64,000 nt of DNA from Polyangium spumosum (GTDB lineage: Bacteria; Myxococcota_A; Polyangia; Polyangiales; Polyangiaceae). The stretch covers positions 744,001 to 808,000 of the forward strand of contig NZ_WJIE01000006.1 of NCBI RefSeq assembly GCF_009649845.1, read 5' to 3'. Both the position numbers and the translations under genes were made by a program. Below the pieces are notes generated by a model, which worked only from the letters and a program-made list of their open reading frames with translations, was not told the DNA's origin and made no database searches. Positions within the stretch are counted from its first letter, which is position 1; each line of letters starts with the position of its first letter. This document shows, piece by piece, positions 50,671 through 64,000 of this stretch.

Positions 50671-50958
50671 TCAGCGGTCGTCCTTGGAGGTGAGCCATTG
50701 GGCCAGCGCCTCCGCGGACAGGTCCAAGATGAGGTCGCTGACCCGGTCGGCCCCCTCATCGCGTACCCTCGTGGCCAGGAGCGCGCGCTCCTCGGGGCTC
50801 AGGCTCCGGCGCAAGCGGCGCTCGAACAGGTGCACGAGCGGCCCGAGCTGGCCCTCGAGGCGCCCTTCCTCGCGCCCTTCCTTGCGCCCTTCCTTGCGTC
50901 CTTGCAGGATGTACTTGTGGACGAACTCGCTCTGATACTCGTAGTTCGGTAGAGCCAT
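50671..50958 (-). CDS. C-terminal tail of an Rpn/DUF4351-like protein, 95 aa (probably a remnant)
   Basis: It reads ALPNYEYQSEFVHKYILQG followed by a Lys/Arg/Glu/Gly repeat (GRKEGRKEGREEGRLEGQ) and a helical end (LFERRLRRSLSPEERALLATRV; LILDLSAEALAQWL). This is the tail usually found after the nuclease part of recombination-promoting (Rpn)-type proteins. The nuclease part is absent. In its place upstream is the serine recombinase, whose frame overlaps this tail, which suggests the element integrated into or next to the gene. An intact short gene cannot be excluded, since an ATG and purine-rich RBS are present. Confidence 0.55.
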   Translation of the reverse strand: MALPNYEYQSEFVHKYILQGRKEGRKEGREEGRLEGQLGPLVHLFERRLRRSLSPEERALLATRVRDEGADRVSDLILDLSAEALAQWLTSKDDR

Positions 50959-52693
50959 GGCCCCTTGACCCCTCTTGCCTGCCCTTGTTTCTCAGTACGG
51001 TGACCACCCGCTGGCCAACTTGGACTGCCGGGTCTTTTTCCATCGCCATCTCACGGAGCGGGAGCGCGAGCGAGAGGGTGAGCTCTGTTGGAGAGACCAT
51101 GCAGACCTGGAAGTCGTGCTCCCTCTTGAGGTCTTGAAAGAGCGCACGCTGAAGCTCCGCCCGTCCACTCATGCGCTCGCGCAGCTTCGCCAGGTACTGC
51201 TGCACCTGCGCGACGCCGAGCTTCGGCGTCGCCCGCGTGACTTGCGGCTCGAGCGTCCCGATCTCCGTCTCGACGGTCTGAAGCTCCGCGCGGAGCTCAC
51301 GCACACGCTCGACGAACGCGCGATCGGGCTCGATGTCCGTTGATGCCTCGAACGTGCGGAAGTACTTCGCGAGCGTGGCCTTGAGCTTGTCGCGCTGCCG
51401 CTTCGCTGCATCGAGCGCCCGCCGCGCCTCGGGTTGTTCCGCCTCGAGCTTCCGGTTCAACTCCGCGAGAGATGGCAACACGAGCGCGGGGGACGAGAGC
51501 AACTCGTGCACCCACGTCCACACGGTCTGCTGCAAGTCCGTGGCTCGCACCAGGGGGAACGCACAGACCCCCGCGCCGCTCGCATGTCGCTGGTGGCAAA
51601 TGTAGTAGCGATTGCGGCTGGCGGCCTTCCCGATCATCGGACTGCCGCACTCCGGACAGCGGAGGATACCAGTGAGCGAAAAAACTTCGCCACTTGGCCG
51701 CCCTTCGCGGACCCGCTTACTCCTGCTCTCCATCGCCCGAATCTGCTGCGCCTTGTTCCAGATGTCGTGCGTAATGAGAGCCTCGTGCTCTCCCTGGTAT
51801 AGGGTCTGCTTGCTGCGTGGCAGCTGCGAGGGCACGCGGTCCGCGTACGCGGCTTCGTCGAATGTGGTGAAGCCGGCATAGACCGGGTTGTCGAGGATCT
51901 TGAGGACGAAGACCGCGCGAAAGGGTATCCCCGTACGACTGACGTACCCGCGGTGGTTCAGGTACAGGGCGATACGCTTGCAGCCATAGCGATACTCGTG
52001 CGACGTGTAGAGCTCGAAGATGAGACGAACGATCTCCGCTTCCTTCGCATCGACATACCAGCACTTGCCGACCGGATAGTCGAGGCACGCCTTCCGGTAG
52101 GCTTCGTCGCGACTCAGCCCCGCTGCTTCCAGGTCCTTGATGCGACGCGCCTGCGACGTGTACCCGAAGGGCGCGGGACCGCCGCCCACCTTGCCCTTCA
52201 GGGCCTTGCCCCGCTTCATCTCGCGGATCCGCTCTGCCGCCAGCCCGACCTCGAGCTCCGAAGCAGCACCTAACACCTGCAGGGAGAACCGCCCGTGTGC
52301 GCTCTTGTAGTCGAACTGGTTGCTGAAGTCCCAGAGCTGGACTCCATGGGCTCGGAGCGCGCTCAGGATCCGTGCCTGGATTTCGTTGTTCCTCCACTGG
52401 CGGTCGGTGTGGCGCGCGCAAACCCCCTGGATCCGCCCAGCCGCGATGTCGTCGAGGAGTTCCTTCAGCGCAGGCCGCTTTTCGGTCCAGAGCTCGGCCG
52501 AGACCTTCCGGGGCTCGACGTAGATACGGTAGTCCTGCCAGCCGCGTAGGCGTGCGATCTCGCGAGAGCGGGCGCACTGGTTCGGGATCGAGAGATCCCT
52601 CTTCATGCTCTCCTCGCTCGTGACGCGCACGTAGAAGGCCCACCAGCGTGCCGGCGGCGGAGAGCCATCGTCCCACGATTGTAACCCCTTCAC
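50756..52693 (-). CDS. large serine recombinase (site-specific integrase)
   Basis: The 645-residue protein has a resolvase-type N-terminus, a recombinase domain (GGGPAPFGYTSQARR; SRTGIPFRAVFVLKILDNPVYAGFT), a zinc ribbon (ILRCPECGSPMIGKA and later YICHQRHASGAGVC) and a coiled coil (DAAKRQRDKLKATLAK; ELRAELQTVETEIG). At the nucleophile position the usual RVS reads RVTSEES, giving Thr then Ser. The GTG at 52693 follows AGGAGGGAGAGGAG and overlaps an upstream stop (GTGA). The last about 65 codons read out of frame through the Rpn-like tail, so the native C-terminus was lost. Confidence 0.85.
   Translation of the reverse strand: MKGLQSWDDGSPPPARWWAFYVRVTSEESMKRDLSIPNQCARSREIARLRGWQDYRIYVEPRKVSAELWTEKRPALKELLDDIAAGRIQGVCARHTDRQWRNNEIQARILSALRAHGVQLWDFSNQFDYKSAHGRFSLQVLGAASELEVGLAAERIREMKRGKALKGKVGGGPAPFGYTSQARRIKDLEAAGLSRDEAYRKACLDYPVGKCWYVDAKEAEIVRLIFELYTSHEYRYGCKRIALYLNHRGYVSRTGIPFRAVFVLKILDNPVYAGFTTFDEAAYADRVPSQLPRSKQTLYQGEHEALITHDIWNKAQQIRAMESRSKRVREGRPSGEVFSLTGILRCPECGSPMIGKAASRNRYYICHQRHASGAGVCAFPLVRATDLQQTVWTWVHELLSSPALVLPSLAELNRKLEAEQPEARRALDAAKRQRDKLKATLAKYFRTFEASTDIEPDRAFVERVRELRAELQTVETEIGTLEPQVTRATPKLGVAQVQQYLAKLRERMSGRAELQRALFQDLKREHDFQVCMVSPTELTLSLALPLREMAMEKDPAVQVGQRVVTVLRNKGRQEGSRGHGSTELRVSERVRPQVHPARTQGRAQGRARGRAPRGPARAARAPVRAPLAPEPEPRGARAPGHEGTR
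50857..50905. repeat. short tandem repeat coding for GRKEGR
   Basis: About four 11-12-base units of CGCCCTTCCTTG/CGCGCCCTTCCT (plus strand) that encode the Lys/Arg/Glu/Gly stretch in the Rpn-like tail. Confidence 0.8.
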
Positions 52694-53280
52694 GACTCCT
52701 CTCCCTCCTCCTCGCGTGCCATCGTCACGAGCAGATCGCTCACGATGTCTACAATCGTATCGCTGAACTGGCATGCGTCCGGTGATGGCGACGAAGACGC
52801 ACCGTCGGACCGATGTTGCCCGAGTTGCCTCGTACTCTCGGCTCTCATAAGGCACGCGCTTGCGTCTCGCGAGCTGCGCCCGCTCGCCGTGCACTCATTG
52901 GCCCGCGTGCACCAGGCCGCCAGGAACTCGGCGGAGGGCTTGGGCGTGGCCGAACGGGAGGCGCCGAGCGTGGTCCTGTCGACGATGTGACGGAGTTCGT
53001 GGACCGGAGAGAGGAATCCGGGGGACTCGAAGGGACCATCGACGGGGGTACGATCGAAACGCTCATTGGCTGCACCTCCCCGGCACCTTCGGTCGCCCGA
53101 AGCGCCGCGTTGCTGGTCATCGGGCTGGAGGCGGGAGGGGCTCACGCAACCGGAGCGGAGCGGCCTCGGGACCTGTGTAGCCCAGTTCCCTCGAATGTAG
53201 CGTTTTGACAAGCGAGTACCAGGAGGAATTGCTGGTTTCACCTCGGCGCTGGTAGCGGGCGCCCGTATCGCTCGATTGGT

Positions 53281-53390
53281 GGCCAAGACAAACAACAGAA
53301 AACCACTGCAAAAGTGGGTTTTGGCATCGCCACCCCCTTGTTTCGCAGGACCAAGCACCAGAAGAGCCGCTCCATGTAACCACTTTTTCG
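53281..53390. repeat. diverged direct repeat, copy 1 (110 bases)
   Basis: Begins GGCCAAGACAAACAACAG and ends at GTAACCACTTTTTC. Two separate anchors (GACAAACAAC and GTAACCACTTTT) recur at exactly +258, so the two copies are colinear without net indels. On the minus strand both copies can be read as a similar peptide with a GxxLFVLA core. Confidence 0.75.
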
Positions 53391-53538
53391 TCGATCCGCC
53401 CCCCGGGACCGATTCGAGCGCGCCCCCGAGCGTCCTCGCGCACCTTCCACGCCCTCCCCCCAGGGCACTTGACCCTACCCTCCGTGCTGCCTTCCTGCCC
53501 CTCGTGGCCCAGCGCAAAGGCCGTGCCGCTCGCGCGTC

Positions 53539-53648
53539 AGCCAGGACAAACAACCAAAAGCCACGTGAAAAGTGAAAAAATCCCCGATTACCCCCTGGAT
53601 TCGCCGGCCCAACTTCGAGAAGAGCCGCTTGAGGTAACCACTTTTGGG
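53539..53648. repeat. diverged direct repeat, copy 2 (110 bases)
   Basis: Partner of the copy at 53281-53390, offset 258 bases. It contains GACAAACAACCAAAAG and AAGAGCCGCTTGAGGTAACC. A weaker, partial third match (GTAGCGGCTTTT) lies near 53816. Confidence 0.75.
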
Positions 53649-53980
53649 TTTTTCGGGCTCTCGGCTCCGCGTCCCCCTCCCGTAACCCTGCGAAAACACG
53701 TCGGGCGCCCCCTCGGAGACACGCTCGACGTCGACCCGCCACAGGTTCCAGGTGGACCCCCCCGCAAAATAAAAGCGGCTTTTCCACTGGCGCCGAGTGG
53801 CTCCTCGGCGGCTTTGTAGCGGCTTTTTGCGAAATCGAGGTCCTCGAGCGGGCCGTTCCAGCGATAGCGTAGAGCGGCGGCTACTTTTGGGATCGTCCCG
53901 ACCGCGGGGGCGTCGATGGGCGGGAAGGGGAACCCAACGATGTCGGCCCCGCTGTCCGTTTCGTCGACGGAGCCGGGGGC

Positions 53981-54010
53981 TGATCCTCCCCCACTTCCGT
54001 GGACAAACCC
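53981..54010 (+). repeat. left inverted repeat of the IS3 remnant
   Basis: Begins TGATCCTCCCCCACTTCCGT and continues GGACAAACCC; about 24 of the first 28 bases match the right end. Confidence 0.85.
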
Positions 54011-54041
54011 AGAGGCGCGAAGATGCGCTAAGGAGAGTTCC

Positions 54042-54811
54042 ATGGCGAGGCGGAAACGGAGGTCGTTCAGCGCGGAGTTCAAGGCAGAGGCGGTTCGTCT
54101 CTGTCAGGTCGGGGACCGGAGCATCACGAAGGTCGCGAAGGATCTGGATCTTACTCAAACGGCGCTACGTGAGTGGGTGAGGGCTGCAGAGACCAACGTC
54201 GGGGAGAAACCCCCCGAGACCCTCACGGGCGCCGAGCGCGAGGAGCTCGTGCGGCTACGGCGTGAAAACAAGCGGCTGCAGATGGAGAGGGAAATCTTAA
54301 AAAAAAGCGACGGCCTTCTTCGCGAAGGAGAGCGAGTGAAGTTCGCGTTTAGGGCTGGCTGTATTTGGCTACGATACGATCCTCGACCTGTTCTCGCGGC
54401 GGGTCGTCGGCTTCGCAATGAGGGAGCAGAACGACCGCGCCCTCGCGCTCGCAGCGCTCGAGCGGGCGCTACGCGCACGCAGGCCGAAGCCGGGGCTTTT
54501 TGCACCACTCGGACCGCGGCAATCCCTACGCCAGCGAGGACTACCGGAAGGCGCTGCGAGAGCGCGGCATCGTCGCGAGCATGAGCCGCACCGGCGACTG
54601 CTGGGACAACGCCGTCGCCGAGAGCTTCTTCGCGACCCTCAAGGCCGAGCTGGTCGACGCGACGCGCTTCCCGACCCGGGATGCCGCGACGGCAGCGATC
54701 GGTGACTACCTCGAGCGGTTCTACAATCACGCCCGGCGGCACTCGTACCTCGGGCACTTGAGCCCGGTCGAGTTCGAATTGAGAGCACAAGTGGCTGCGT
54801 TTGCGGCATAG
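54042..54811 (+). pseudogene. IS3-family transposase (orfA-orfB), deleted and frameshifted
   Basis: The orfA part is intact at the start (MARRKRRSFSAEFKAEAVRL, helix-turn-helix and leucine-zipper region RRENKRLQMEREILKK). At an eight-A run (54299-54306) the frame passes straight into the orfB start (VKFAF) without its usual separate stop. Most of orfB is deleted: after VKFAF the sequence jumps to the late catalytic core (LDLFSRRVVGFAMREQND). A T-run frameshift near 54498-54502 separates that from HHSDRGNPYAS...GDCWDNAVAESFFATLKAEL (DDE Asp and Glu region) and the end (FYNHARRHSYLGHLSP). It cannot make an active enzyme. Confidence 0.9.
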
Positions 54812-59440: not shown

Positions 59441-61555
59441 ATGCTCGCGACGCCGACGGAGAGTGCGGTGAGGATGAAGTCGAACTCCAGGAACCCACGC
59501 CCACCCCAGGACCGCGAGCAGGTCGAGGAGAGACGGGGCGCGAGGTCAGTGGTACGCTCGATCCGGGAGACCCGATTGACAGCCAGCGTCCCTCGCCCGC
59601 GCGACGTGCTCTTCGTGCTTCCGCCGGATTTCTCGGCCCCGGAGGCGCACCTCGTCTTTCGTTTTCCGCCGCTCGGGCCCGCGGTCGTCGCGGCGAGCAT
59701 GGCCTCGCTCGGGCTCGTGGGGCGCGCGGTCGATCTCGCCCTCGATCTTGTCAAGGCGCCGCTCGACCTCGATGTCGCGCCGCTCGTGGCGCCGGCGCTC
59801 GTCGAGCGGCACCTCGCGGGCGAACGCGACGCGCGCATCGACGTCGTGATGGACGGGATCTTCGAGCGCCTCGACGAGCCCGGCCGGGGCGTGGACCTCG
59901 TCGCGGTCTCCATCGATCGCGGGAGCCAGGTGCCCTTCGTCGCTGTCCTCACCTGCGAAATGAAGCGCCGCTGGGGAAAGCGGATCATCGTGGGCGGCGT
60001 CGCCGTCGAGCACCTCCGCGCCCTCCTCGAGACGAGCGGCGCGATCGGCGCCGATATCGTCACGAATGCCAGCACGCCCGCGCAGATCCGTCGCGCCTTC
60101 GCCGCGCTGCTGGACCTCCCGGAGCACCGGCGTGGAGGTCCCCTCGAGCCGAACACGGAGATCGTCACGCTCGTGCGGGGCGGCATGCGAAAGGCCCCGT
60201 CCCCCGCGGACTGGCCAGCGCCCGATTTTTCGATCTATGATCTCGACCTTTATCGCCGCGACATCGTTCGCGCCGAAGGGGCCACCTATCCGGCTTATCG
60301 CGGCGAGCTCGGCGCGTCGCTCGTCCTGCCGTATTTTTTTACATTCGAATGCCAGTTCTCCTGCGCATTTTGCCAGACGGGCGGCACGCAGGAGCACAAG
60401 CCGATCGACCAGGTCGTGCGGGAGCTCGCGGAGCTCTCGGAGCGCTGGCAGACGCGCGAGTTTCTCTTCTTCAACGCGCAGGCGAACTTGCTCGCGGCGG
60501 AACTCTCGCGCGCCCTGCTCGCGGCGCGCCTCGATCTGCGCTGGTCCGATTCGTACCGCGTGCGCCCCTCGGAGCCGGGGGATCTCGAGCTCATGGCGCG
60601 CGCCGGCTGCGCGGGCCTGACGATCGGCGTGGAGTCGGCCTCGGCGCGGGTGCTGAAGGCGATGGTCAAAGGGCACCGGCCCGAGCAAGCGACGGAGATG
60701 GTCCTCGAGGCGCACCGCCATGAGATCATGGTCCGCGTGAACCTGCTCTCCTGCTTTCCCGGCGAGACGCGCGCGGAGTTCGAGGAGACGCGCGATTGGA
60801 TCCGGCAGAACGCCTTCGCCATCGACGATCTCGCGCCCTCTTCGTTCTACCTCACGGCCGACTCGCCGATCGGCAGGAAGCCGGAGCGGTACGGCGTCCG
60901 CGTCCGGGGGCCTCGCTCGCTCGAAGGGGAAGGGCGCTTCCGCAAGTCGCCCGATTCGCTCATGTACGACGAGATTGGTGGTCTCACCTGGGAGGAGCGC
61001 GCGCCGATGCTCGAGGAGAGCGAGATGATGCTGCGAAGCGCCTGGCTCGAGGGACGCGCTTCGCGGGGCGGGCTCGGGGGTTTTTCCCCGTCGAGCATGC
61101 TCGGCCTCCGCCGCCATTTCGAGACGAAGGCCGAGATCTACTCGTTCCTAAGCCGCTGCCGCGGCGGCGCGCACCGCCTCGAAGAAGAGGCGCGCGCCCC
61201 GGAGACGAGCGCGGAGGTCATCCCCTCGATTCTGCGCGCGTCGCTGCCCAAGCTGCTCGCGCCCCGCTGGGCCGATGCCGCCATGGCCCGTGCGTTCGCT
61301 GCGGCCTTCCGAGCGGCGGCGCCCTCGCTCGCGGTGCGCCTGCGCGAGGGCGACACCGCGCACGTCGTGCTCTGGTCCGACGGTCGATTCCTGTTTTTCC
61401 GCGGGGCCGTGCGCCGCGGGAGCGACGATCAGGTGCGCTCGTTCATGGTCGAAGAGCCCCTCGGGGCGCCTCCCCCCGAGGGGATCGCGCAGGGGTCCTC
61501 CTTCGAGGTCCTCACCTTCCGGCTCGATCCCCGGAGGCCCAGGGCGATGCCATGA
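59441..61555 (+). CDS. cobalamin-binding radical SAM enzyme, 704 aa
   Basis: Residues about 52-230 form a B12-binding-like Rossmann domain (RDVLFVLPPDF; FPPLGPAVVAASMASLG; IIVGGVAVEHL) without the DxHxxG His motif, as in many class B radical SAM methylases. The radical SAM core follows, with Cys304, Cys308 and Cys311 (FECQFSCAFCQTGG) and FLFFNAQANLLAAELS, GLTIGVESASARVLK and NLLSCFPGETRAEFEETRDW. A C-terminal extension of about 200 residues is not recognised. Likely reactions are C-methylation or ring chemistry. The start is unsure (59441 or 59474). Its stop overlaps the next start (ATGA). Confidence 0.88.
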   Translation: MLATPTESAVRMKSNSRNPRPPQDREQVEERRGARSVVRSIRETRLTASVPRPRDVLFVLPPDFSAPEAHLVFRFPPLGPAVVAASMASLGLVGRAVDLALDLVKAPLDLDVAPLVAPALVERHLAGERDARIDVVMDGIFERLDEPGRGVDLVAVSIDRGSQVPFVAVLTCEMKRRWGKRIIVGGVAVEHLRALLETSGAIGADIVTNASTPAQIRRAFAALLDLPEHRRGGPLEPNTEIVTLVRGGMRKAPSPADWPAPDFSIYDLDLYRRDIVRAEGATYPAYRGELGASLVLPYFFTFECQFSCAFCQTGGTQEHKPIDQVVRELAELSERWQTREFLFFNAQANLLAAELSRALLAARLDLRWSDSYRVRPSEPGDLELMARAGCAGLTIGVESASARVLKAMVKGHRPEQATEMVLEAHRHEIMVRVNLLSCFPGETRAEFEETRDWIRQNAFAIDDLAPSSFYLTADSPIGRKPERYGVRVRGPRSLEGEGRFRKSPDSLMYDEIGGLTWEERAPMLEESEMMLRSAWLEGRASRGGLGGFSPSSMLGLRRHFETKAEIYSFLSRCRGGAHRLEEEARAPETSAEVIPSILRASLPKLLAPRWADAAMARAFAAAFRAAAPSLAVRLREGDTAHVVLWSDGRFLFFRGAVRRGSDDQVRSFMVEEPLGAPPPEGIAQGSSFEVLTFRLDPRRPRAMP

Positions 61556-62580
61556 GCGGCTTTGTCTTCTTCCGCGAAAAGCAGCTCGCGCTCCGGATCG
61601 CCGCGGCACTGCCGTTCCACAAGACCGTGGCCGGCTCCGTTCGGGCCGTGCTCGCCGAGGAGATCCGGCGCTCGGGCTCCCTCGACGAGGTGCAGCTTTA
61701 CTTCGAGAACCCCTGCGCCCAGGCTTGTGAGTTCTGCGAGGAGCCTCGGCGCAGGGGCCGCTTTCCCAGCCGGCAGCTCGCGTCGCTGCTCCGCCGCTCG
61801 CAGGAGCTCGGCCTCGACCTCGTCGGCTCCGGCGCGCTCGCGGCGCTCGTCGACGCGCTCGCGGACCTCGCGCCGAAGGTCCCGCTCACGATCACCGGGC
61901 ATGACTGGACGCGCCACCCGCGCCGCCCGGAGATCCTCGCTGCGCTCGAGCGCCGCCCGGACACGCGCCTCCGACTCCAGGGGCCCTCGCTCGGCTTCTC
62001 CTCGCCCGAGCTCACGCGCCGCGTCGCGGCCTTGCCTGGGCTCGAGTGGATCGCGACGACCCTGCAATCAAGTGATGCAGCGGAGCACGACGCCATGGTC
62101 GGCGCCCCGGACGCCCACGCGGAGCTGCTCGCGGCGCTCGACAACCTGAAGGCCACGCGGGTCCCCATCCTGCTCACGGTGGTGCTCAGCCGGCGCGCGC
62201 TCCGCACGCTGCCCGAGACCTTGTCGTTCCTGTCAGCGCGCCGGCTCCCGCTATCGCTCCAGGCGTTCATCCCGGACGAGGCCATGGGCCCGGCGCTCAA
62301 CGTGCTCGCGCCGCTCGACGAGCTCCGCCGCGCTCTCGAGCGGGCTCCGCGCGAGGCCCTCGGCGCCATCCAGTCGGTGGTCGGGGTCCCCCCGTGCGCG
62401 GTGCCCGCGCCGCTCCGCCGGAAGATCGCCCCGGCCCATCGAATGAAAGGGCGCGAAGGAACGAGGTTCGGAGCGGGGTGCGGCACGTGCGCCGCGCGTG
62501 GCCATTGCTCGGGCGTACCGTCGGGTTACCTCGTGGCGCTCGGGGCGCGGGGGATGGAGCCCCTCGCGTCGACCGATTGA
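61552..62580 (+). CDS. radical SAM enzyme with C-terminal SPASM-like cysteines, 342 aa
   Basis: The cluster motif is CAQACEFC (Cys 55, 59, 62), later than usual because of an N-terminal helix-rich extension (RIAAALPFHKTVAGSVRAVLAEE). Barrel segments with weak family signatures follow (VPLTITGHDWTRHP; LEWIATTLQSSDAAEHDAMVG). A C-terminal Cys group CGTCAARGHCSGVP probably binds a second cluster. It is coupled to the cobalamin enzyme by a four-base overlap, so the two act in one pathway. The substrate is unknown; peptide or small-molecule modification are both possible. Confidence 0.85.
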   Translation: MSGFVFFREKQLALRIAAALPFHKTVAGSVRAVLAEEIRRSGSLDEVQLYFENPCAQACEFCEEPRRRGRFPSRQLASLLRRSQELGLDLVGSGALAALVDALADLAPKVPLTITGHDWTRHPRRPEILAALERRPDTRLRLQGPSLGFSSPELTRRVAALPGLEWIATTLQSSDAAEHDAMVGAPDAHAELLAALDNLKATRVPILLTVVLSRRALRTLPETLSFLSARRLPLSLQAFIPDEAMGPALNVLAPLDELRRALERAPREALGAIQSVVGVPPCAVPAPLRRKIAPAHRMKGREGTRFGAGCGTCAARGHCSGVPSGYLVALGARGMEPLASTD

Positions 62581-62644
62581 CTCGGTCTTCCAGCTTCCGG
62601 CGAATGCCGCCCGAGCGTCGTCGACGCCCGTCGGCGGTTGATCC

Positions 62645-63595
62645 TTGACATCCCCGCCAGATCCGGGGAGCTTTCGCTCCGTGTCCCCCGAAAGGTCCCG
62701 TCAGCGCGCGCGGCTCCCGGTGACGAACGTCGCTGGCCCCGCTCCGCGCCAGTCCCTCGCGCCGCTGGAGACCTGCGGGCCCGACGATCGGTTCCACGAC
62801 TACATACTCGCCGAGTACGAGCCGATCGCGCCTGCCCTGGGCAAGCTCCGCTCGCTCAACGTCCTCGTGGAGTCGTTCGCCATTGCAGGCGTCGAGCGCG
62901 AGGGGCTCGCGCTCCTGTCGGCGGTTCGCGCAGGGCTCGGGCCATTTCGCACGGTCTGGGGCATCAAGCGGCACCACGCGCACGGCGAGCTTGGCTGGGA
63001 GCTCTATTTCTACGATTTCCAGCGTGCGCATGCCGACCTCTCGATCGCCCGCGTTGCAGCCATCCTCGCCCCCCACCTCCGGGTGACCGGGCGGGAGCCT
63101 CGGCCGCTCCCCTGGCACATGTTCAGCGTCGAGCTCGGCCCGGCAGGGCTCTTGGAGGGGGCGCCTTCGGCCATCGACATCTACATCGACATGCGCTCTT
63201 ACAAATGCGTGGCCGACGAGCTCGTCTTCGAGAACGTCTATACGTTCCACGACGCGCGTGCCGAGATCGAGGAGGTCCTGCACCGCGTCCGCTCCTGCGT
63301 GCATTTCGATCCGAGTCGGGACGCGCTCCACCGGCTGATGCCGGCGCACCTGTTCAACTGCCGGAAGATCTGCGTCGCGAACAAGCGGCACGCCGACGCG
63401 ATGTATTTTTCACGGATCCCTACCCCCGCGCTCTCGCGCTTCCTCCGTGATCATCAATGGCCCGGGGCGCTTCAGGATTTCGTGCGCACGCGCGATGAGG
63501 CGCTTGGCCACCTGCTCTGGGATGTGGGGATCGATTTCCGGGCGATCGATGGGCGCGCGACGACCATCAAGAGCGGGATTTATGGCAGCTTCTGA
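62645..63595 (+). CDS. unrecognised 316-aa protein in a radical SAM cluster
   Basis: No family recognised. The protein has recurring beta-rich segments with Lys/Arg and Tyr: TVWGIKRHHAHGELGWELYFYDF, WHMFSVELGP, IDIYIDMRSYKCVADELVFENVYTF, KICVANKRHADAMYFSRI and IDFRAIDGRATTIKSGIYGSF. These could be the strands of a barrel that binds a negatively charged or prenyl-like ligand, but this is only pattern reading. It is soluble without signal or membrane segments. The next radical SAM gene starts inside its 3' end (14-base overlap), so it belongs to the cluster. Confidence 0.75.
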   Translation: MTSPPDPGSFRSVSPERSRQRARLPVTNVAGPAPRQSLAPLETCGPDDRFHDYILAEYEPIAPALGKLRSLNVLVESFAIAGVEREGLALLSAVRAGLGPFRTVWGIKRHHAHGELGWELYFYDFQRAHADLSIARVAAILAPHLRVTGREPRPLPWHMFSVELGPAGLLEGAPSAIDIYIDMRSYKCVADELVFENVYTFHDARAEIEEVLHRVRSCVHFDPSRDALHRLMPAHLFNCRKICVANKRHADAMYFSRIPTPALSRFLRDHQWPGALQDFVRTRDEALGHLLWDVGIDFRAIDGRATTIKSGIYGSF

Positions 63596-64000
63596 GCCGC
63601 GGTCCGCCCTGCCGAATGGCGGCGACGTCCGCTTCCTCCCGCCTGCTCCTCCGTGGCCGTGCGAGAGCCTGATGATCACCTTCGCGTTCCGGTGCAACAT
63701 CGCCTGCACCTTCTGCATGGTCGAGGACGCGCTGAACGTGTTGCCCGGCACCTCGCTCGCGGCGTTCCAGCGCGCCGTCGAGGATCCCTCGATGCTCGAG
63801 GGCGTCTCGCGGATCATCTTCAGCGGCGGCGAGGTCACCCTCGCCAAGGACCTGCCCGCGTATGCCGCATTTGCCCGCTCGTTGCCCGGGATCCAACACG
63901 TACGCATCCAGACGAACGCGACGCGCCTCGGCGACCGGCGGACCCTCCGCACGCTGATGGACGCGGGTATCGACGAATTCTTCGTGTCCTTTCACGCGCC
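63582..64000 (+). CDS. radical SAM enzyme, N-terminal part (cut by window edge)
   Basis: Cluster motif CNIACTFC (Cys 38, 42, 45) in LMITFAFRCNIACTFCMVEDALN, then the GGE loop RIIFSGGEVTLAKDLPAYAAFAR and QTNATRLGDRRTLRTLMDAGIDEFFVSFH. This is the pattern of MoaA/PqqE-like enzymes; a SPASM tail may follow beyond the window. The ATG at 63582 overlaps the previous gene by 14 bases, showing coupling. About 139 codons are visible. Confidence 0.88.
   Translation, partial: MAASEPRSALPNGGDVRFLPPAPPWPCESLMITFAFRCNIACTFCMVEDALNVLPGTSLAAFQRAVEDPSMLEGVSRIIFSGGEVTLAKDLPAYAAFARSLPGIQHVRIQTNATRLGDRRTLRTLMDAGIDEFFVSFHA

Follow-up and report, generated by a model that had tools for sequence, protein, structure and literature searches.

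The ABBA or PT-barrel prenyltransferases have in common an antiparallel barrel whose ten strands come from five alpha-beta-beta-alpha units, and for one of them, EpzP, the diphosphate site has been assigned to R49, K117, R232, K283, Y174, Y220 and N172 (PMC3485228). The other described system that is relevant here is the His-Xaa-Ser (Hxs) system, two components of which, HxsB and HxsC, are treated in a second source (PMC9062424). The locus analyzed here, which recalls both, lies in the 10.76 Mb genome of the myxococcote Polyangium spumosum (GCF_009649845.1), at the right edge of a stretch of 64,000 nucleotides (hereinafter the window; contig NZ_WJIE01000006.1, positions 744,001 to 808,000 of the forward strand). 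In the best reading that we can offer, to which we assign about an even chance, the 13 genes from 59441 to about 75855 form an orphan pathway of specialised-metabolite tailoring built on a constant pair of genes, denoted C and D. Protein C (62645..63595, plus strand, 316 aa; start codon TTG or, alternatively, GTG at 62720) is predicted to adopt the ABBA prenyltransferase fold, and D (63582..64934, plus strand, past the window end at 64000; 450 aa) is an HxsC-like radical S-adenosylmethionine (rSAM) protein with an auxiliary Cys cluster and a C-terminal accessory domain. Computed in the present work were the gene order, the pairing of C with D, the folds predicted for C and for a second barrel protein, E, the accessory domain, and the modularity of two further gene pairs, A-B and F-PhyH2.

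The C-D pair is preceded by two genes for rSAM proteins, namely A (59441..61555, plus strand, 704 aa), of the B12-rSAM C/P-methyltransferase type, and B (61552..62580, plus strand, 342 aa), which is HxsC-like and has a C-terminal Cys cluster. The first-pass annotation, made from the letters of the window, had recognized three coupled rSAM genes and the 316-residue C at the window edge, and this arrangement holds up: A and B overlap by 4 bases, B and C are separated by 64, and C and D overlap by 14. The run continues on the same strand for about 12 kb beyond the window edge, in a stretch, L003, that was followed as far as the end of the contig (58999 is added to an L003 position to obtain the window position).

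The C-D pair and two predicted barrel proteins

The phylum was sampled with 377 Myxococcota genomes drawn evenly, and the proportions given below hold for that sample. Relatives of C are encoded in 32 of these genomes, that of P. spumosum included. At a threshold of E<=1e-40, chosen by us, D is detected in 31, all of them among the 32 C genomes; the 32nd, G203, has a weaker D below the threshold that adjoins C. The neighbourhood comparison that had been suggested for the 316-residue protein shows D adjoining C at 32 of 32 Myxococcota loci (the window's own included), where each of the 35 C genes is followed on the same strand by an adjacent gene for a D-type rSAM protein. The D profile used in this count was built from most of the same D genes, and tblastn with the window's D recovers the same neighbours. 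Locus counts here and below come from profile searches on six-frame open reading frames (ORFs) in stretches of 5.7-20 kb, some of which end at contig ends, and gene calls in the other genomes come from a simple in-house ORF scorer, which called no more than two genes in L061 and placed some starts wrongly. Thus, in the Myxococcota sampled, C and D travel together.

Outside the phylum, a C-D pair is carried by an alphaproteobacterial plasmid, that of Pontibrevibacter nitratireducens (NZ_CP049813.1), the sole record among 72,556 plasmid records with a C relative at E<=1e-3. In this region (L074:2157-15801), the pair lies 15 bases downstream of the gene for a 3926-aa repetitive protein that looks autotransporter-like by eye, and its D has no C-terminal extension. 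In one distant family, the surroundings of C-D include genes for proteins some 560 aa long in which a Cys cluster like that of HxsC and a GYPxCC motif are recognizable by eye (L043:348-2057, L044:547-2199, L044:13229-14917); one of these proteins was checked and has no NCBIfam match.

Protein C itself has no Pfam or NCBIfam match at E values up to 1, in agreement with its initial description as a protein of unknown family, to which a predicted prenyltransferase (ABBA barrel) fold can now be added. The model of C has a mean predicted local distance difference test score (pLDDT) of 88.1 and a predicted template modelling score (pTM) of 0.84. It was built from alignment A1, which contains 31 of the 35 C sequences (the two copies from L050 and the sequences from L057 and L058 are left out) and also provides the residue counts. 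The ten strands of the model form five pairs, so that, at the level of a predicted structure, C has the barrel defined above. In a Foldseek search with this model, the best 34 rows are all aromatic prenyltransferases, headed by AmbP1 (7.4e-6), and VIA aligns the model with CdpNPT (Z 12.8, root-mean-square deviation (rmsd) 4.2, 241 residues aligned) and with FunA and 6-DMATS (Z 12.2). A sequence search of the PDB gave a single match at E 1.5, and a profile search returned mostly HIV gp41 and capsid chains (E 0.02 and worse) over short stretches; these were judged to be chance matches because the fold search gives a different, full-length match. By its predicted structure, C is a prenyltransferase-barrel protein of a new family. 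The window genome contains no second copy of C and no match to Pfam Trp_DMAT; as this profile has no match in 14 control genomes either, its silence carries no information.

Conservation in the C family is concentrated in the predicted barrel. K108, E119, Y121, Y123, S161, Y180, N197, Y199, K247, Y254, D293, D297, K309 and Y313 are kept in 28-31 of the 31 sequences; among them, K108, E119, Y121, Y123, N197, Y199, K247 and K309 (29-31 of 31) fall on barrel strands, and the near-invariant residues occupy alternating strand positions. The N-x-Y of strand 6 and the Lys of strand 10 resemble N172/Y174 and K283 of EpzP, by strand counting only. Three loci (L050, L051 and L053) each contain two tandem C-D pairs, and the second C of both L051 and L053 departs at most of the conserved barrel positions together, keeping E119 and D293 in A1; the second C of L050, compared in a separate alignment, also differs at many conserved positions. 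Because the residues change as a set in the duplicate, the sequences suggest that the conserved barrel residues form one functional site.

Alternatively, C might be no enzyme but a substrate-binding or chaperone subunit that reuses the barrel fold and forms an rSAM complex with D. The one-to-one adjacency of C and D, the retention of degenerate second C copies beside a second D, and the lack in C of the K-x-Y pattern found in E are all compatible with a subunit of this kind, whereas the other C copies show near-invariance on the barrel strands, at three lysines and several tyrosines among other residues, which is what an active site would show. We consider the non-enzymatic role possible but, on balance, unlikely.

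The second barrel protein, E (66978-67847 in window numbering, outside the window; plus strand, 289 aa), has no Pfam match and no NCBIfam family match. Its model (pLDDT 88.3, pTM 0.87), based on an alignment of 17 sequences (A3, which excludes the F10-type proteins as well as the relatives from L038, L058, L072 and L073), again has the barrel fold, as a prediction. Foldseek places PagF first (1.6e-7), followed by KgpF, LimF, DciF and AmbP1, and structural alignment gives DciF with Z 19.4 (rmsd 3.3, 248 aligned) and 5-DMATS and CymD with Z 18.8, so that the model of E is the better prenyltransferase match (Z 19.4 vs 12.8 for C). E55, S57, R69, K134, K184 and Y186 are present in all 17 sequences and Y136 in 16; these residues sit on strands 1, 2, 4 and 6 of the model and include the acid, the Arg and the two K-x-Y motifs, E55, R69, K134/Y136 and K184/Y186, which we take to correspond to E89, R100, K187/Y189 and K259/Y261 of FgaPT2. 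With these residues, E retains what looks like a canonical active site and a complete donor site.

An E-type profile matches in 18 of the 377 genomes. An E-type protein is encoded within the 6-20 kb examined around C-D in 15 of the 32 loci, a member of the F10 family in four more, and in G355 the E-type gene is on another contig (L069). E-type barrel regions also occur in larger proteins. One is found inside an 801-aa protein that resembles a B12-rSAM by eye (L072:8648-11053), and in two other proteins (L068:9720-10754, L038:8707-9906) the barrel region is preceded by a Cys-rich stretch that resembles the final part of the auxiliary-cluster region of an rSAM protein.

The rSAM proteins, their accessory domain and a possible peptide substrate

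Besides A, B and D, the run encodes two rSAM proteins, F, a B12-rSAM (67894-69576), and an SPL/PA0069-type protein (74707-75855), both on the plus strand, in window numbering and outside the window. All five contain the CxxxCxxC motif (by eye) and belong to the rSAM superfamily by motif and profile, with B under the Pfam cutoff: Radical_SAM is matched above the cutoff by A (8e-18) and full-length D (3e-18), and below it by B (1e-5). The NCBIfam neighbours of A, all below cutoff, include the PhpK family (1e-25) and a RiPP (ribosomally synthesized and post-translationally modified peptide) C-methyltransferase family (1e-16). The earlier label "cobalamin-type" for A is based on these below-cutoff neighbours; the B12-binding domain of Pfam was not found in A, although it was in F. 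Proteins B (1.9e-12, 46.7 bits) and D (37.9 bits) match NCBIfam HxsC far short of its curated cutoff (267.9), so that neither qualifies as HxsC.

The same accessory domain, of about 75 aa, recurs in D, in F and in the SPL-type rSAM. The last ~75 residues of D match the C-terminus of F (hhalign probability 90, E 1.6e-6), and the latter is in turn similar to the C-terminal part of F6-type barrel proteins (89, 2.2e-6); the direct match between D and the F6-type domain is weak (18, 0.0013), and nine control pairs reach 1.12 or less. A profile of the domain, in the building of which the SPL-type rSAMs were not used, matches the N-terminus of seven of the eight proteins of that type (5e-10 to 6e-6, this locus included). 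The domain is also present in a second B12-type rSAM (L047_g11, 9e-8), with weak matches in the rSAM protein L042_g09 (single domains at 0.14 and 6e-4) and in a protein resembling 2-oxoglutarate (2OG) oxygenases; the matches in L045_g07 (1e-4), L069_g06 (6e-4) and the D of L038 (3e-4; missed in the locus count) are weak as well. At the 12 loci with F, the domain is found on F in the ten where D has it and is absent from F in the two where D does not. The C-terminus of A shows no match to the domain, and the accessory region has no match among the Pfam matches or among the NCBIfam matches listed. HxsD was considered as a possible origin of the domain and rejected, as it gave no match. Another contig of the window genome encodes an rSAM protein, P0018, with two such domains and, adjoining it, a 122-aa stand-alone domain protein (L090:8486-10632, that is, G000:C3 about 628985-631131); P0018 is 42% identical to L042_g09, which is encoded near C-D in a distant genome.

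As a rival reading, C, D and E might modify a ribosomal peptide in a RiPP-type pathway, a divergent branch of the His-Xaa-Ser system with its precursor encoded elsewhere in the window genome. A peptide substrate is kept as a main rival because two of the 32 C-D loci hold a His-Xaa-Ser system and B and D are HxsC-like. In the first of these loci, L047, a single same-strand run includes C and D, an HxsB that exceeds its cutoff (533 bits), HxsD, a gene resembling HxsD and a peptide with 12 HxS repeats (L047:4807-5100); in the second, L064, HxsD, HxsB and a seven-repeat peptide (L064:16858-17118) follow D at a distance of 4-6 kb. A third peptide (L073:13591-13935) lies beside relatives of the HxsB/HxsD-type genes near an E-type region; in all three peptides, the repeats are mostly HGS and the final residue is W. 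Furthermore, the top Foldseek matches of E, PagF, KgpF and LimF, are peptide prenyltransferases. But Hxs genes occur at only two of the 32 C-D loci in the stretches examined, B and D are far from the HxsC cutoff, HxsB and HxsD were not seen among the NCBIfam matches listed for the proteins of the window locus, and a regular-expression search found no peptide with at least three HxS repeats in L003 or the window. The first-pass annotation had placed a possible precursor to the right of the window. The same-strand run does extend there, to 75855, but no precursor peptide was found in it: small ORFs outside genes are few, and in a search confined to the spaces between the genes of the run, not one ORF of 20-100 aa was on the coding strand. 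Taken together, these data leave the peptide pathway doubtful. In G377, a RiPP precursor with an NHLP leader peptide (L092:1871-2176; TIGR03793, above cutoff) is encoded at a distance of about 7 kb from A-B, and in G337 a close relative of it (L093:2323-2691) at about 4.5 kb from F; no NHLP precursor was found at the window locus.

Gene content, modules in congeners and a possible pathway

The remaining genes of the run are all on the plus strand and are given here in window numbering beyond the window. D is followed by a Rieske oxygenase (64931-66160) and a PhyH oxygenase (PhyH1, 66157-66978), then by E, F and a second PhyH oxygenase (PhyH2, 69573-70382); from D to PhyH2, adjacent genes overlap by 1-4 bases, save for a 46-base gap ahead of F. 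After a spacing of 126 bases come an SGNH protein (70509-72200), a NodU-type carbamoyltransferase with an SxtJ-like C-terminal region (72197-74401), a DUF5989 protein (74404-74634) and the SPL-type rSAM. The Rieske CxH...CxxH and the HxD of both PhyH proteins are intact by eye. No core synthase of the nonribosomal peptide synthetase or polyketide synthase type is found among the 13 genes with Pfam and NCBIfam. The Rieske, PhyH and SxtJ-bearing carbamoyltransferase genes suggested a saxitoxin-type cluster, which was dropped because these are generic tailoring genes and the locus showed no gene for a biosynthetic core. Serine-recombinase-like and transposase-like ORFs are recognizable by eye a few kb to the left of the cluster (window 50756-54584), and another transposase-like ORF lies close to the contig end (L003:17983-18606).

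Relatives of A, B, C and D with 87-93% protein identity are present in other members of the genus, and this conservation, like the C-D adjacency at 32 of 32 loci, exceeds what chance would give. In two congeners, the genes of the run are arranged otherwise than in the window genome. In G367, 11 of the 13 genes form one run, C-D-Rieske-PhyH1-E-A-B-SGNH-carbamoyltransferase-DUF5989-SPL. G337 contains all 13 in two places 4.06 Mb apart, C-D-Rieske-PhyH1-E-SPL in one and F-PhyH2-A-B-SGNH-carbamoyltransferase-DUF5989 in the other. A and B are adjacent in the window genome, G337, G367 and G377; in the last of these, no other module genes are seen within 20 kb, and the flanks are, by eye, those of the second block of G337. 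Among the six genomes of the genus, D is present in three and A in four, A-B occurring in all three D genomes and also where D was not found; across the phylum sample, A is found in seven of 377 genomes (at 1e-30) and B in ten (at 1e-15). A-B is a movable module, separable from C-D, and F-PhyH2 is a separable module as well. The row of genes for the SGNH protein, carbamoyltransferase and DUF5989 protein (L003:11510-15635, window 70509-74634) also adjoins A-B in G337 and G367; it might be a cassette of general use that does not belong to the pathway.

This modularity raises the question whether the run consists of unrelated small operons, A-B, C-D-Rieske-PhyH1-E, F-PhyH2 and the carbamoyltransferase cassette, that abut by chance. 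The modules do occur apart in G337 and G377, and A and B are rare, so that most C-D genomes lack them at the thresholds used. In the window genome, however, the modules are interleaved with overlaps and short gaps, the accessory domain is common to D, F and the SPL-type rSAM across modules, and its presence on F tracks that on D; chance abutment accordingly appears improbable. Housekeeping roles of the rSAM enzymes in cofactor or tRNA maturation, to which weak MoaA, MiaB and PqqE matches might point, can practically be dismissed, given that these matches are far below the curated cutoffs and that the spread is patchy: no more than 32 of 377 genomes encode C, and D was not found in three of the six genomes of the genus. 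The two outcomes that the first-pass annotation had named as fatal, homologues that never co-occur and housekeeping roles, do not apply to C and D, and A-B approaches them only weakly.

For the tailoring pathway, we infer the catalytic steps, their order, the substrate and the product throughout, as follows. E would use a prenyl diphosphate to prenylate an acceptor, which could be an amino acid, a small aromatic compound or a peptide. C would bind or further alkylate this acceptor in its polar barrel and present it to D, which would carry out radical C-H chemistry aided by its auxiliary Fe-S cluster. F, and probably also A, would add methyl groups, the Rieske and the two PhyH oxygenases would introduce hydroxyl groups, and capping of an alcohol may fall to the carbamoyltransferase. 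The accessory domain of D, F and the SPL-type rSAM would dock them to a common partner. A more far-reaching and decidedly speculative version, which we consider rather improbable as a whole, combines two propositions: that C-D is a two-component enzyme of a new kind, in which the barrel subunit selects or builds a possibly prenylated substrate and the rSAM protein rearranges it, and that the accessory domain is a new docking module that recruits rSAM, B12-rSAM and SPL-type rSAM enzymes, barrel proteins and possibly 2OG oxygenases onto one carrier, as the counterpart of the RiPP recognition element (RRE) in an undescribed class of pathways.

Several observations weigh against a tailoring pathway of this composition. 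C and E are joined by predicted fold alone and not by sequence: the best BLASTP match between them (E 0.007 over 84 residues) is not significant as homology, and hhalign of the C family with the E-type families gives 0.7-1.3%. The Lys and Arg residues on the strands that bear K-x-Y in E are not kept in C, and because of this C may not bind prenyl diphosphate. No E-type or F10-type protein is encoded in the stretch at 13 of the 32 C-D loci (12 if the E-type gene on another contig of G355 is included), nor next to the Pontibrevibacter pair, where 14 kb of annotation to each side were covered, so that C-D may not depend on prenylation by E. The double-domain rSAM P0018 is present in all six genomes of the genus, including the three without D; the accessory domain is therefore not exclusive to this pathway. 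Finally, neither F nor PhyH2 turned up in G367 within the 35 kb that were inspected, and G377 carries A-B in a genome in which D was not found. The single coupled pathway without a core synthase that the first-pass annotation had envisaged thus survives as the best reading, with C and D together and with all 13 genes of the run recurring in G337 and 11 in G367, but its four genes are not one unit, given that A-B is 4.06 Mb from C-D in G337 and occurs without D in G377.

The constant C-D pair links two large enzyme worlds, the aromatic prenyltransferases and the rSAM enzymes, and its constancy points to a chemically unusual natural product. In an open-access collection with few subscription papers and no bioRxiv preprints, no description of a combination of the prenyltransferase fold with rSAM enzymes was found. 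The pair offers a handle for mining orphan clusters that lack a core synthase, and the accessory domain gives rise to a hypothesis, open to testing, about the recruitment of unrelated enzymes to a single substrate.

Comparison with known systems

The closest described relatives of C and E are the ABBA prenyltransferases (DMATS type, NphB/CloQ/EpzP, cyanobactin PagF/LimF, DciF, FunA), with which both share the same predicted ten-stranded barrel; E matches them further by its invariant acid, Arg and K-x-Y residues on strands 1, 2, 4 and 6 of the model. In contrast to these enzymes, C and E belong to no sequence family that could be detected (identity is 7-18% across the listed structural alignments) and are both encoded beside rSAM enzymes, and C has another set of barrel residues. 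Among the B12-rSAM methyltransferases, F resembles the KedN5 family (2e-28) and A the PhpK family, each far below the cutoff.

The second comparison is with the Hxs system. HxsA, HxsB and HxsD were not seen among the matches listed for the window locus, the HxsC cutoffs are not reached, and that system is not known to include barrel proteins such as C and E; yet B and D resemble HxsC, including its Cys-rich C-terminal part, and two C-D loci hold HxsB, HxsD and HxS-repeat peptides.

The third comparison concerns the accessory domain. RREs are leader-recognition domains of RiPP enzymes. The likeness of the accessory domain to them would be one of function only: both are small domains appended to enzymes of differing classes within one pathway.

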